Assembly: GCF_026586675.1 (NCBI RefSeq)
Contig: NZ_JAODIX010000064.1
Span: 21,825-85,824, forward strand
Origin: Halorubrum yunnanense
GTDB taxonomy: Archaea > Halobacteriota > Halobacteria > Halobacteriales > Haloferacaceae
Direction of reading: 5' to 3'
DNA: 64,000 nt
The notes beneath the pieces were generated by a model. It worked only from the letters and a program-made list of their open reading frames with translations. It made no database searches and was not told the DNA's origin. Position 1 is the stretch's first letter; each line of letters opens with the position of its first letter. Below, piece after piece: positions 1 through 35,528 of the stretch. Both the position numbers and the translations under genes were made by a program.

Positions 1-172
1 CTGCGCCGCCCTCGCGACTGCCCCTTTGAGTCCCACCCGGCCCCGCACCTCACGCCTCCCCAGCCTCGCGGTTCGCGCTCTCCGAGCGCTCACCGCGTCC
101 CTCGCGCGTGCGACTCGCGCCCTTCCGGGCGCTCGCCGGCACGCGCCACCGCGCCGTTGTTATTTATAAGCA
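1..172 (-). repeat. Dispersed ~358-bp repeat, copy A (cut by window edge)
   Basis: Partial copy of a repeat also present at 15782-17245 and 31790-32147; its sense strand is the minus strand and it runs off the left edge. A TTTATAA-type box lies at 161-171. Hairpin 1 spans 104-146, with outer arms 104-111/139-146 and inner arms 117-122/127-132. Hairpin 2 spans 67-97, with outer arms 67-72/92-97 and inner arms 75-80/84-89. In both hairpins the inner and outer stems are separated by GA opposite GA on the sense strand. The conserved core, rich in GGGGAGGCGTGAGG on the sense strand, follows at about 20-62. No credible protein is encoded. Confidence 0.8.
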
Positions 173-14820: not shown

Positions 14821-15711
14821 CTACTCGATCAGCCGCTCGATCTCGGTAACGAGGATCCCGCTGGCGCCGACGGCCTTCAGTTCCGAGATGGTCGCGAACA
14901 CGTCGTGCTCCTCGACGACGGCGTGGACCGCTACCATCCCGTTGCCCTCTTCGTCGGCCTCGACGTCCATCACCGTCGGGCCGCCGAGCCCGGGGATCAC
15001 GTCTTTCACCTCGTCGAGCCGCGCCTTCGGGGCGTTCATCATCAGGTAGCGGCGGCCGTCCGCGGCGAGGACGGACTCGAAGGCGGTCACCACCTGCTCG
15101 ACCTTTGGGTCGTCGACCACGTCGGGGCGGGCGAACAGCCGCACCGAGGAGTCGAGCACGTCGTCGATCACCGCCAGCCGGTTCACCTTCAGCGTCGTCC
15201 CCGTGGAGGTGATGTCGACGATGGCGTCCGCCATGTCGACGTGGGGGGTCAGCTCCGTCGCGCCGGTCACGGTGACCACGTCGGCGTCGACGCCCACCCG
15301 GTCGAGGTAGTCGCGGGTGACCGCCGGGAACTCGGTGGCGATCGTCCCGCCGTCGAGGTCCGAGACGACAGAGATGTCGCCGTCTTCCGGCGCCGCGAGG
15401 ACGAGCTTACAGGAGCCGTACCCCAAATCGAGCAGGTCGACGAGGTCGTCCTCGCCCGCCTCGCTCGCGGAGTCGGGGACGCCGCCGGACTCCGCGGCTT
15501 GGTCGAGGCCCGTGATCCCGAGGTCGGCCGCACCGTCGCGGACGTACTCGGGGATATCGGCCGCGCGCGCGAAGAGGATCGACACGTCGGGGTCGACGGT
15601 GTCGGCGTACAGCTGACGGTCGGCGGTCTCCTCGACGTGAAGCCCCGCGCGCTCCAACAGCGAGAGCGTCGGCTCGTGTAGGCGGCCCTTGTTGGGGACG
15701 GCGATGCGCAT
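14821..15711 (-). CDS. hisG: ATP phosphoribosyltransferase, long form
   Basis: First enzyme of histidine synthesis: condenses ATP with PRPP. 296 aa, the long HisG form. The catalytic domain begins [20 protein letters not shown] and has [12 protein letters not shown] and the PRPP loop [16 protein letters not shown]. The C-terminal regulatory domain (about 220-296, [20 protein letters not shown], ending VTEIERLIE) binds histidine for feedback inhibition in this form, so no HisZ is needed. No other his genes are adjacent. Confidence 0.95.
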
Positions 15712-15865
15712 ACGGAACGCGTCGCGGGGACAGGGGGAAACGTTTTCGTCCGGCGGGCGGAACGGATGTCGACGCGAGATCGCTTATAAATAGTCGCGGT
15801 GGCGCGTGCCGACGAGCGCCCGCAGGGCGCGAGTCGCACGCGCGAGGGAGTCGCTGGCGCCATTA

Positions 15866-16970
15866 CTGGTAGTCATAACTTTTGAAAAGATAAGAAGCGA
15901 TCAACCCACGCTCTCGCAAAGCTGAGGCGATGAGCATATTTACGAAAAATGTCACAGATGAGCGTTCGATACGTTTCTACATCGGGTGCATCAAGCGGCG
16001 ACAGATCGCGTTTTACACTCTTCCAGATCTGTTCGATCGGATTGAGATCTGGTGAATACCGCGGTAATGCTACTCTCGTCAGATCGAGCTGTTCTACTAT
16101 ATTATCGACATACTCAGCAAAATGAGACGAAAAGTTGTCGCAAACGATGATGATCGGTCGCTTAGGATTCTTCTCGCGGATCTTGTGGGAAAAAATCGCC
16201 CACAGATTCCTTGCTTAGATCCGCTTTGCAGTCGACGACACTCGTTCCATTAAGCGCGTAAAATCCGAAGACGACATCGTCAAAATTCTCTGTCGGCGTC
16301 TCCTTTTGGATCGTTGGTTTCTCGAAGGCCCACAACCGCCGGCTGTTGTCCGTCGGTCGAGGCCACGCTTCGTCAAGAAACCCGACGACGACACCGCCGT
16401 CAGTCATCGCGTCGTCATCAAGATCGTCGAGAGCGGCCTCAAGACGTTCTTCGAGCTGCTCTTCAGCATCATCAGGGCGATCCGGAGATTCTGGTCGAGG
16501 GATCGCGTATTTAAGTCCAAGATCTTTGAGAACTCGTGAAAGATGTCGTTGTGAGTAAGATACGTTAAATCCATCTTCGATAAGCCGCTGAACTTCGTGG
16601 GTGGTGAGCGGTTGATGCCGTTCAAGCACCTCTCGAAGTCTTTCGCGCTGGTGCTCGTCAAGTTTTGGCGGACGGCCATCACCGAACTCGGGTCGAAGAC
16701 CGTCGACAGCGCCGTCGTTCCAGCGATCGATCCAGCGGCTCGCGGTCGGCGTCGAGACGCCGACACGCGTCGCCGCTTCGGTGACTGTATCGCCGAGATA
16801 GACGTTTTTAATCAAGCATAATCGCCGGACGAGACGAGGTTCTTCGTCCGATTGAGCTTGATCAATCGTCTCGTCGATCTCCTCTTCAGTGAGATGTTTG
16901 ACGAGCTGCTTCGACGGTCCAGGCATACCTGACGATCTCACGCGAACATTACAAATTTTTCGACTATCAC
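15866..16970 (-). mobile_element. IS630-family insertion sequence
   Basis: About 1105 bp, bounded by TA at 15864-15865 and TA at 16971-16972, the target duplication typical of IS630. Terminal inverted repeats are weak but visible: CTGGTAGTC at the left end against GTGATAGTC read inward from the right end. The single transposase gene is frameshifted (see next entry). The element sits in the loop of a 12-bp stem (15850-15861 with 16975-16986) of the dispersed repeat. Terminus positions follow from TA targeting and repeat comparison and could be off by a few bases. Confidence 0.75.
15873..16926 (-). pseudogene. IS630-family transposase, frame-disrupted
   Basis: From ATG 16926 the first frame runs to a stop at 16162 and encodes two helix-turn-helix regions (VTEAATRVGVSTPTASRWID, then a second at about residues 85-125) and the first catalytic Asp in VVGFLDEAWPRP. 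At a run of six T followed by CCC near 16185-16193 the homology passes to the +1 frame, which continues to a TGA at 15873 with the second Asp in IIIVCDNFSSH and the Glu in YSPDLNPIEQIW. All three DDE residues survive across the two frames. One extra T, or programmed frameshifting, explains it; I favour a recent inactivating mutation. Confidence 0.82.
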
Positions 16971-17283
16971 TATCGGCGCCAGCGACGAGGTTGGGGAGGC
17001 GTGAGGTGCGGGGCGGTGCCGTGCGGGGTGGGACTCAAAGGGGCAGTCGCGAGGCGGGCGCAGGCGACGTAAGCACCGCAACGAAGGAGCGTAAGCGACT
17101 GAGTGAGGAGCACAGCGAGCGTGCGTCCGCCTCGCAGCTGGGGCTTTGGCGGTGTTCGCCGCCGATCTGCTGTCAACCATTTATAAGCGGCCGGCTGGGA
17201 CTTTGGACGCGTTCGACGGCGATCTGCTATCAGCTATTTATAAGCAAGCGGCTGGGATGTCGGAGGAGATCACAGTTGCCGAC

Positions 17284-29533: not shown

Positions 29534-32176
<2,643 letters not shown>

Positions 32177-33343
32177 TTATACCATCCGCTCGCCCGCGGC
32201 GAACACCGCCTCGGGCTCCTGCCACGCCTCGACGTCCTCGGTCGGGTCGGCGTCGAGGAGGACGAGGTCGGCTTGGTACCCCTCCTCGATTCGGCCGATG
32301 TCGTCGATTCCGAGCAGGTCGGCGGCGTTGACGGTGGCGGCCTCCAGCGCCGCCTCCGGCGAGAGGCCGTAGTCGACCATGTACGCGAGCTCCTGCGGGA
32401 TCTCCTCGAAGAAGTTGAACGGCGTCCCGGCGTCGGTGCCCATCGCGATCGGGACGCCGGCGTCGAGCGCGTGGTCCCACGCGTCGTCGAAGCGGTCGGC
32501 GGCGTCCTCGGCCTTCGCGACGGCGTCTGCGGGGATCCCGGCCTCGACCCCGTTGTCGACGATGCCCCGGAGCGCGCTCGCGGTCGGGACCCAGTAAGTC
32601 CCCCGCTCGGCCATCATCTCGGCGGCCTCCCGGTCCATGAACGTCCCGTGTTCGACGCTGGAGATCCCGGCCTCGACGGCGTTCTTGATCCCCGCCTCGC
32701 CGTGGGCGTGGGCCGCGGTCGGCGTGTCGGTCGGCGCGGCCGCGTCGGTGAACGCGGCGAGCTCTTCGGGCGTCAGCTCGGGGGCGCCCGTCACCGCGCC
32801 CTCGGTGAGAACGCCGCCGGTCGCCATGCACTTGAGCACGTCAGCGCCCGCCTTCAGCTGCTCGCGGGCCGCCTTCCGGACCTCGGCCGGCCCGTCGGCC
32901 TCCCGGCCGAACCAGTTGCCGTGGCCGCCGGTCATGATCACGTTGCGGCCGCACCCGAGGACCCGCGCGCCGTCGAGGTCGCCGGCGGCGACCGCCTCGC
33001 CCGCGTCGAGCGCGAGCGTCCCGCGGCTCCCGAGGTCGCGGACGGTCGTGACGCCGGCCTCGACCGCGTCCTGAAGGTTCCCCGCGGCCCGGTAGCTCGC
33101 GGCGTAGTCGCTTTCGGAGACCGCGGTGGAGACGTCGGGACGCCCGTCCATCATGACGTGGACGTGCGCGTCGATCAGCCCGGGAGCGACCACCTTGCCG
33201 CCGGCGTCGATCTCCCCGTCGACATCATCGGCGTCGCCCTCGACGTCGTCGCCGACCGCGACGATCTCCCCGTCCGCGATCGCCACGTCGGCCTCACGGA
33301 TTCCCGCGGCGTCGACGACCCGTCCGCCTCTGAGTACGTACAT
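32177..33343 (-). CDS. Imidazolonepropionase-like metal-dependent amidohydrolase
   Basis: 388 aa from ATG 33343 (MYVLRGGRVVDAAG). TIM-barrel amidohydrolase: metal motif LIDAHVHVMMDG, the carboxylated-lysine strand DVLKCMATGGVLTEGA, His in THAHGEAGIKNAV-like and SSVEHGTFM, and the catalytic Asp in AMGTDAGTPFNF. Closest in architecture to the Xaa-Pro dipeptidase/imidazolonepropionase-related group. Substrate not predictable; no pathway neighbours. An earlier in-frame ATG at 33454 would add 37 residues lacking similarity to the family. Confidence 0.88.
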   Translation of the reverse strand: MYVLRGGRVVDAAGIREADVAIADGEIVAVGDDVEGDADDVDGEIDAGGKVVAPGLIDAHVHVMMDGRPDVSTAVSESDYAASYRAAGNLQDAVEAGVTTVRDLGSRGTLALDAGEAVAAGDLDGARVLGCGRNVIMTGGHGNWFGREADGPAEVRKAAREQLKAGADVLKCMATGGVLTEGAVTGAPELTPEELAAFTDAAAPTDTPTAAHAHGEAGIKNAVEAGISSVEHGTFMDREAAEMMAERGTYWVPTASALRGIVDNGVEAGIPADAVAKAEDAADRFDDAWDHALDAGVPIAMGTDAGTPFNFFEEIPQELAYMVDYGLSPEAALEAATVNAADLLGIDDIGRIEEGYQADLVLLDADPTEDVEAWQEPEAVFAAGERMV

Positions 33344-33493
33344 ACTCCAACGAGGGGCGGTTCGACGGGTAAACGCTCGGGTCGCGGTCGTTCGGCCGTC
33401 CGTAGCTGTCATGCTGTCACACACAACCACATATAACAGGCCGGAGAATGTCAAACCACGGAAACGAATGGCGAACCGGACCGAGAGGGCGGG

Positions 33494-35519: not shown

Positions 35520-35528
35520 TTTATAAGC
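35520..35528 (+). promoter_or_regulatory. TATA box of the cupin gene
   Basis: TTTATAAGC, centred 27 nt before ATG 35551, so a leaderless transcript is predicted. It has the same sequence as the boxes in the 57-bp repeat units but is not part of that repeat. Confidence 0.6.

Follow-up and report, generated by a model that had tools for sequence, protein, structure and literature searches.

The three non-coding repeats carried by the window, by which we mean the whole 64,000-nucleotide stretch of Halorubrum yunnanense DNA analysed here, probably belong to a set of dispersed, non-autonomous mobile elements of Halobacteriales whose conserved product would be a folded strand, most likely RNA, a reading of sequence comparisons to which we assign a probability of about 0.62. 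The preliminary description of this DNA had offered a structured RNA gene or a MITE-like element as alternatives; the copies display features of both, combining a covarying fold on one strand with empty orthologous sites and, in some of them, IS6-like ends. The putative RNA would measure about 230-260 nt and comprise hairpin P1, an exchangeable hairpin P2, a G-quadruplex-prone linker, a core and hairpin P3, with tandem tail units following it; the core is predicted to close P3, its ACT[C/G]AAAG pairing with CTTT[G/C] and enclosing a GGG/GGG internal loop.

Copies in the window and anatomy of the element

Three copies had been claimed in the window, and all of them lie where the preliminary description placed them, with copy A spanning 1-171. 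Their parts are as follows.

1..171, minus strand: copy A, truncated by the window edge, with an N gap next in the contig
~162-170, minus strand: box TTTATAAAT of copy A, read from sequence
from GCGGTGGCGCG (142-152) via P1, P2, G-rich linker and core (18-33) into P3, minus strand: body of copy A
15782..17245, plus strand: copy B, whole, split by an insertion sequence, upstream of hisG (14821-15711, minus strand)
15796..15849, plus strand: hairpin P1 of copy B (GCGGTGGCGCG...ACGCGC) plus GAGGGA, from sequence and P1 covariation
15850..15861, plus strand: P2 5' arm of copy B, GTCGCTGGCGCC, whose complement is the arm at 16975-16986
15862..16974, no strand assigned: insertion sequence in the P2 apical loop of copy B
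16162-16941, minus strand: ORF within this insertion sequence, with HTH_32 and HTH_33, an IS630-type transposase-like helix-turn-helix
16975..16986, plus strand: P2 3' arm of copy B, GGCGCCAGCGAC, read from sequence
16987..17033, plus strand: G-rich linker of copy B, GAGGTTGGGGAGGCGTGAGG..(GCGG)n..GGGTGGGA, G-quadruplex-prone
17031..17046, plus strand: invariant core of copy B, GGACTCAAAGGGGCAG
17044..17149, plus strand: long hairpin P3 of copy B and closing GGGGCTTTGG, from sequence and covariation
17150..17245, plus strand: two tail units of copy B, each ending TTTATAAGC (17180-17188 and 17237-17245)
31790..32147, minus strand: copy C, whole, between an amidohydrolase gene (32177-33454, minus strand) and ligA (minus strand)
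32138..32146, minus strand: box TTTATAAAT ahead of the body of copy C
32076..32131, minus strand: body start GCGGTGG and hairpin P1 of copy C, from sequence and covariation
32049..32071, minus strand: hairpin P2 of copy C (CGCGGCGACCGAAGGGAGCCGCG)
31989..32050, minus strand: G-rich linker of copy C (GAGGCTGGGGAGGCGTGAGG...) and core (31989-32004)
31886..31991, minus strand: hairpin P3 of copy C and GGGGCTTTGG, from sequence and covariation
31790..31885, minus strand: two tail units of copy C

In the window GGACTCAAAGGGGCAG has, at up to 3 mismatches, 3 matches against 0.20 expected, a number reached by none of 100 shuffles, and TTTATAAGC has 7 against 0.01 expected; the window count of GGGGAGGCGTGAGG alone, at up to 2 mismatches, is not significant. 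A solitary TTTATAAGC at 35520 was considered as a relic of the element and rejected, given that it sits just ahead of a gene start. The earlier judgement that the repeats have no credible coding content was right, as the ORFs overlapping the bodies are mechanical only and the folding evidence accounts for the conservation.

Comparison of about 240 copies defines a body with a sharp 5' boundary at GCGGTGGCGCG, in which P1, GAGGGA, P2, the G-rich linker, the core, P3 and GGGGCTTTGG follow one another and are succeeded by tail units. Hairpin P2 occurs as discrete alleles, the linker takes the form GAGGCTGGGGAGGYGTGAGG(GCGG)n, the invariant core reads GGGACT[C/G]AAAGGGG (core sequence GGGTGGGACTCAAAGGGGCAG), and P3, usually about 100 nt long, ends in GGGGCTTT. 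The tail consists of one or more variable tandem units of roughly 55 bp, often ending TTTATAAGC. Tail number and hairpin length vary among copies elsewhere, and the fixed length of 357 or 358 bp that had been proposed dissolves on comparison, the two copies in question happening to share two tail units. The TTTATAA boxes, which had been taken for defined ends, could not be upheld in that role either: TTATAAA lies upstream of the body in 90 of 174 copies, copies examined in another genus have no such boxes, and where copies are full-length the boxes are internal to longer inverted repeats, the real ends of well-preserved copies being further out. Around -15 and -47, TATA-like boxes were seen in Halorubrum only, and there in just part of the copies, which counts against the RNA reading.

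Smaller modules are nested within some copies. A twin-hairpin module of roughly 48 bp (TCGCCGGCGC..GCGCCGGCTGCCAGAGG..CCTCGCTG) is inserted in loops of the element in both orientations, for example in P3 (L033, L077, L080) and at the P1-P2 junction (L012, L017, L024); a second one (GTTCACGAGAGCG..CGTTCTGATGACG) is also present, and both are REPIN-like mini-elements.

Copy number and distribution

The draft genome from which the window comes (3.17 Mb) holds 95 matches to GGGACTCAAAGGGGCAG at up to 1 mismatch and 69 exact CTCAAAGGGGCAG cores, with no match to either reversed control. Of 53 Halorubrum genomes, 49 have the core, at 4-185 per carrying genome, and every named record among the matches listed for TGGGACTCAAAGGGGCAG is Halorubrum. 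Wider searches used R1, a covariance model built on the linker, the core and P3, at E<=0.001, with at most 20 candidates scored per genome and E-values that are rough; of 146 sampled Halobacteriales genomes 97 gave matches, and of their 56 genera 42, with E-values outside the family down to about 1e-20, and a phylum-wide sample gave no R1 match at E<=1e-4 outside the order. The supposition of a large family is thus borne out well past Halorubrum, the search of this genome and other haloarchaea with core and covariance model, which the preliminary description had suggested, having returned many further copies across the order. One other genus (g14, genome G065) has 72 copies with a CTGAAAG variant and a tandem tail of its own. 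One or few copies of the fold are seen in genomes such as G149 and those carrying L217 and L218 (genus g16), and it is perhaps in such low-copy genomes that an ancestral or domesticated locus is best sought.

Rfam 15 gave no gathering match at the copies and nothing meaningful at E<=5. Spread by viruses was rejected, the exact core being absent from viral contigs, as was spread by plasmids, with only 2 weak matches in PLSDB. An apparent strand polarity along the complete chromosome G001 was judged to arise from forward matches being listed first and to reflect no biological pattern. A literature search with the core sequence returned a single, unrelated Arabidopsis paper, an absence that is no proof of novelty, and none of the work turned up by a limited search for haloarchaeal repeats, MITEs or structured RNAs describes the element.

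A covarying fold on one strand

In P3 (109 sequences), double changes affect 21 of the 28 consensus pairs, and paired cells amount to 97.3%, compared with maxima of 16 pairs and 83.8% over 200 shuffles, and in P1 (128 sequences) the corresponding values are 11 of 15 pairs and 96.9%, with shuffle maxima of 10 and 82.9%, the shuffle tests being inflated by related copies. Controls in which P3 partners were slid by 1-3 columns keep the relatedness and agree, pairing falling to 22-42%, with the caveat that the structure came from the same alignment. Covariation, the mark of a structured RNA, supports conserved pairs on one strand. Because about as many A-C as G-U cells would be expected from a DNA cruciform or from mutation by itself, the observed excess of G-U (218 versus 24, about 9:1) argues for selection on the fold of one strand, be it RNA or DNA. 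The C/G letter of the core in ACT[C/G]AAAG mostly covaries with CTTT[G/C] across genera, the exception being genus g16, in which CTCAAAG faces CTTTCGAG.

The linker has a mean G4Hunter score of 1.34 (minimum 1.04), the flanks a mean of 0.24. A G-quadruplex in the linker is a reasonable prediction of the model for cells with molar K+.

Orthologous sites and module exchange

Eight orthologous copies at the ligA site have alignable flanks and differ in their P1, P2 and P3 alleles. Structure has been retained at these sites in eight species, the measured segments of the eight ligA copies and three hisG copies folding more stably than shuffles, with z values of -1.5 to -9.1, most of them below -3. 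Identical P2 alleles adjoin P3 hairpins that are no more alike than those of random copies, from which it follows that hairpins are swapped between loci. The maintenance of structure is best explained by selection acting together with gene conversion; gene conversion alone might keep it at orthologous sites. L233, a copy at the ligA site, has retained the outer stem of P3 but carries the apical part turned round with respect to the orthologous copies, which suggests inversion between the hairpin arms.

Upstream of hisG, a same-orientation copy lies near the gene in four Halorubrum species, including that of the window, and further out in a fifth; two species of g51, a genus of another family, have a divergent pair there. 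The elements concerned are that at ~15796 in the window, L399, L405, L406, L410 and L425, and they may reflect shared ancestry or a hot spot. Many copies in g51 are divergent inverted P3 pairs around a short hairpin; L385-L390 and L397 have a central hairpin of the GCCGGCTGACCAACCGGC type with matching AGTCCCACCC/GGGTGGGACT arms.

Mobility and IS6-like ends

At the ligA site, downstream of the amidohydrolase gene, the copy of the window genome lies in one orientation and the corresponding gap is short and empty in many congeners, so that the check for empty sites in relatives, also suggested beforehand, reveals here the empty orthologous sites characteristic of a MITE. Among 29 other species read at this site, eight share an intact insertion opposite in orientation to that of the window genome and one has a deleted remnant.

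The best-preserved Halorubrum copies, of about 410-590 bp, lie inside IS6-like inverted repeats. L285, with 588 bp, has exact GGCTCTGTTGAAATCCT...AGGATTTCAACAGAGCC ends on both sides, and its flanking 8-mers TTATAACT/TTATAATT are a near match, as are those of L135 (AATGAGTT/AATTAGGT) and L108 (GACTGAGC/GACCGAGA); degenerate versions of the ends occur in L135, L142, L064, L108, L167 and L313-L316. We take these ends to belong to the IS6 family on the strength of their resemblance to IS6 end sequences and of the 8-bp duplication; no IS6 transposase gene was identified in the loci read. Only a minority of the Halorubrum copies have terminal inverted repeats in common with an IS family: out of 203 copies, the control is exceeded by about 7 at the left end and about 12 at the right, and the copies inspected in another genus had no IS6-like ends. 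Judged from these sequences, IS6-like carriage would explain part of the spread, in one genus, and the IS6-like ends may be a late carrier rather than the ancestral mobiliser.

The same GGCTCTGTTGAAATCCT/AGGATTTCAACAGAGCC repeats also enclose passengers free of transposases in Halorubrum (L289, L291, L304, L309, L310, L303, L190), among them small membrane proteins, a transporter of the Pfam SBF (bile-acid-symporter) family and a lipoprotein-like protein; five of these cassettes have perfect 8-bp duplications (AAGCAGAT, AGCTCTAT, TTGCGATC, GTTCATGT and AAACGATC). Taken together, the passengers with IS6-like ends resemble mobile gene cassettes and would form an unexplored set of them.

Alternative explanations

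The main rival to an RNA is a single-stranded-DNA mobile element of IS200/IS605- or REPIN-like kind, whose folded strand an HUH transposase acting in trans would excise and join, RNA being irrelevant. Single-stranded DNA recognised in transposition would give the same strand-specific covariation; moreover, one strand only folds, the element is hairpin-rich, devoid of a transposase and high in copy number, the inverted P3 pairs with a central hairpin in g51 resemble REPINs, and IS605-related PATEs are known in Haloquadratum (PMC3119063). We nevertheless regard it as unlikely, since G-U, a mismatch in DNA, is frequent (63/128 at one P1 position), pairing is retained at old orthologous insertions, and full-length Halorubrum copies show inverted repeats and degenerate target duplications that are foreign to IS200/IS605. 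Furthermore, 20 tnpB loci had 2 elements with about 1.8 expected from density. These two, both antisense to tnpB, represent chance level, and a link to TnpB or omega-RNA was rejected on this ground. HEARO RNAs are multi-copy, structured, mobile and ORF-less, and by analogy the element, which has the same four properties, could be imagined as a TnpB/IscB guide-RNA-like relic, an omega-RNA without its nuclease; we give this hardly any credence, considering the missing excess of elements near the 20 tnpB genes, the want of a meaningful Rfam match at E<=5 and the fact that no ORF-bearing version was seen.

Placement relative to genes bears on another alternative, a host-adaptive element, similar to REP/BIME, whose hairpins at convergent junctions would end transcription or protect mRNA 3' ends. 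With genes called by a simple GC3 rule, 44 of 101 gaps with an element are convergent, as opposed to 19.4 expected by length (Fisher p 2.5e-6), and 15 are divergent, as opposed to 31 expected; this enrichment and depletion, together with the folding kept at orthologous sites, speak for such a role. Promoter avoidance, however, accounts for the placement equally well, and the convergent preference fits the loss of promoter-damaging insertions and is no proof of a 3'-end function. Besides, 100 elements are sense and 72 antisense to the upstream gene although one strand is selected to fold, presence varies between species, and the core is far more elaborate than a terminator requires, all of which makes a 3'-end element improbable. 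The best copies, with their IS6-like ends and near 8-bp target duplications, could finally be seen as an ordinary IS6-type MITE, in which non-coding filler lies between IS6 ends and structure is kept since the copies are young. This appears very improbable, as the ends are unrecognisable in most copies whose body is intact, another genus and distant loci carry the body without IS6 ends, the compensatory changes are massive, and the conserved interior would be left unexplained.

Proposed model and comparison with known systems

In the RNA reading, we infer that the folded strand works as RNA and that its fold is required by a recogniser, which would be a transposase supplied in trans or an RNA-binding protein of the host; selection and gene conversion would keep the copies in shape, and insertions disturbing promoters would be removed. 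A more ambitious form, put forward tentatively and with rather less than even confidence, is an RNP-forming RNA found order-wide, maintained individually at dozens to ~185 loci per genome, hitch-hiking on transposases in trans and reshuffling its hairpins; its parts would be the three hairpins, a linker whose G-quadruplex is favoured by potassium at molar concentration, and a protein-binding internal loop.

If a real RNA, the element would rank with the most numerous structured RNAs in any group of archaea, and it occurs in the majority of the genera sampled from a well-studied order while missing from Rfam. It raises the testable question of why an apparently selfish repeat retains its fold copy by copy at old sites, offers a natural test case for G-quadruplex RNA in molar-K+ cells, and could plausibly give rise to gaps in the assembly of Halorubrum genomes and to spurious ORFs in them.

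The single pieces are known, namely MITEs and PATEs, IS-derived cassettes and the large mobile structured RNAs of bacteria; a covarying, modular, order-wide interior was not found in Rfam or in the literature searched. The MITEs, PATEs and SMRs of Haloquadratum walsbyi are, like the element, transposase-less dispersed repeats of a haloarchaeon, and their MITEs share only terminal bases with IS, according to the sections of PMC3119063 at hand; a covarying interior is not described in those sections (PMC3119063), whereas the element has its interior conserved across the order and its ends not. With mobile insertion cassettes or tIS bearing IS6-family ends it shares inverted repeats of the GGCTCTGTTGAAA type, 8-bp duplications and a passenger in place of the transposase, but its passenger is a structured, RNA-like body and its ends are lost in most copies. 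Bacterial REP, BIME and REPIN sequences are likewise numerous intergenic hairpin repeats, some arranged as inverted pairs like those in g51, from which the element differs in being much larger and archaeal and in possessing a G-rich linker next to a core whose sequence is conserved. Stand-alone copies of HEARO and omega-RNAs are large structured mobile RNA repeats, often ORF-less, and the element differs from them in its lack of an Rfam match and of a link to tnpB. By analogy, it may also be set beside the SINE-like retroposons of eukaryotes, with which it would share an internal structured RNA and a variable 3' tail of tandem repeats.
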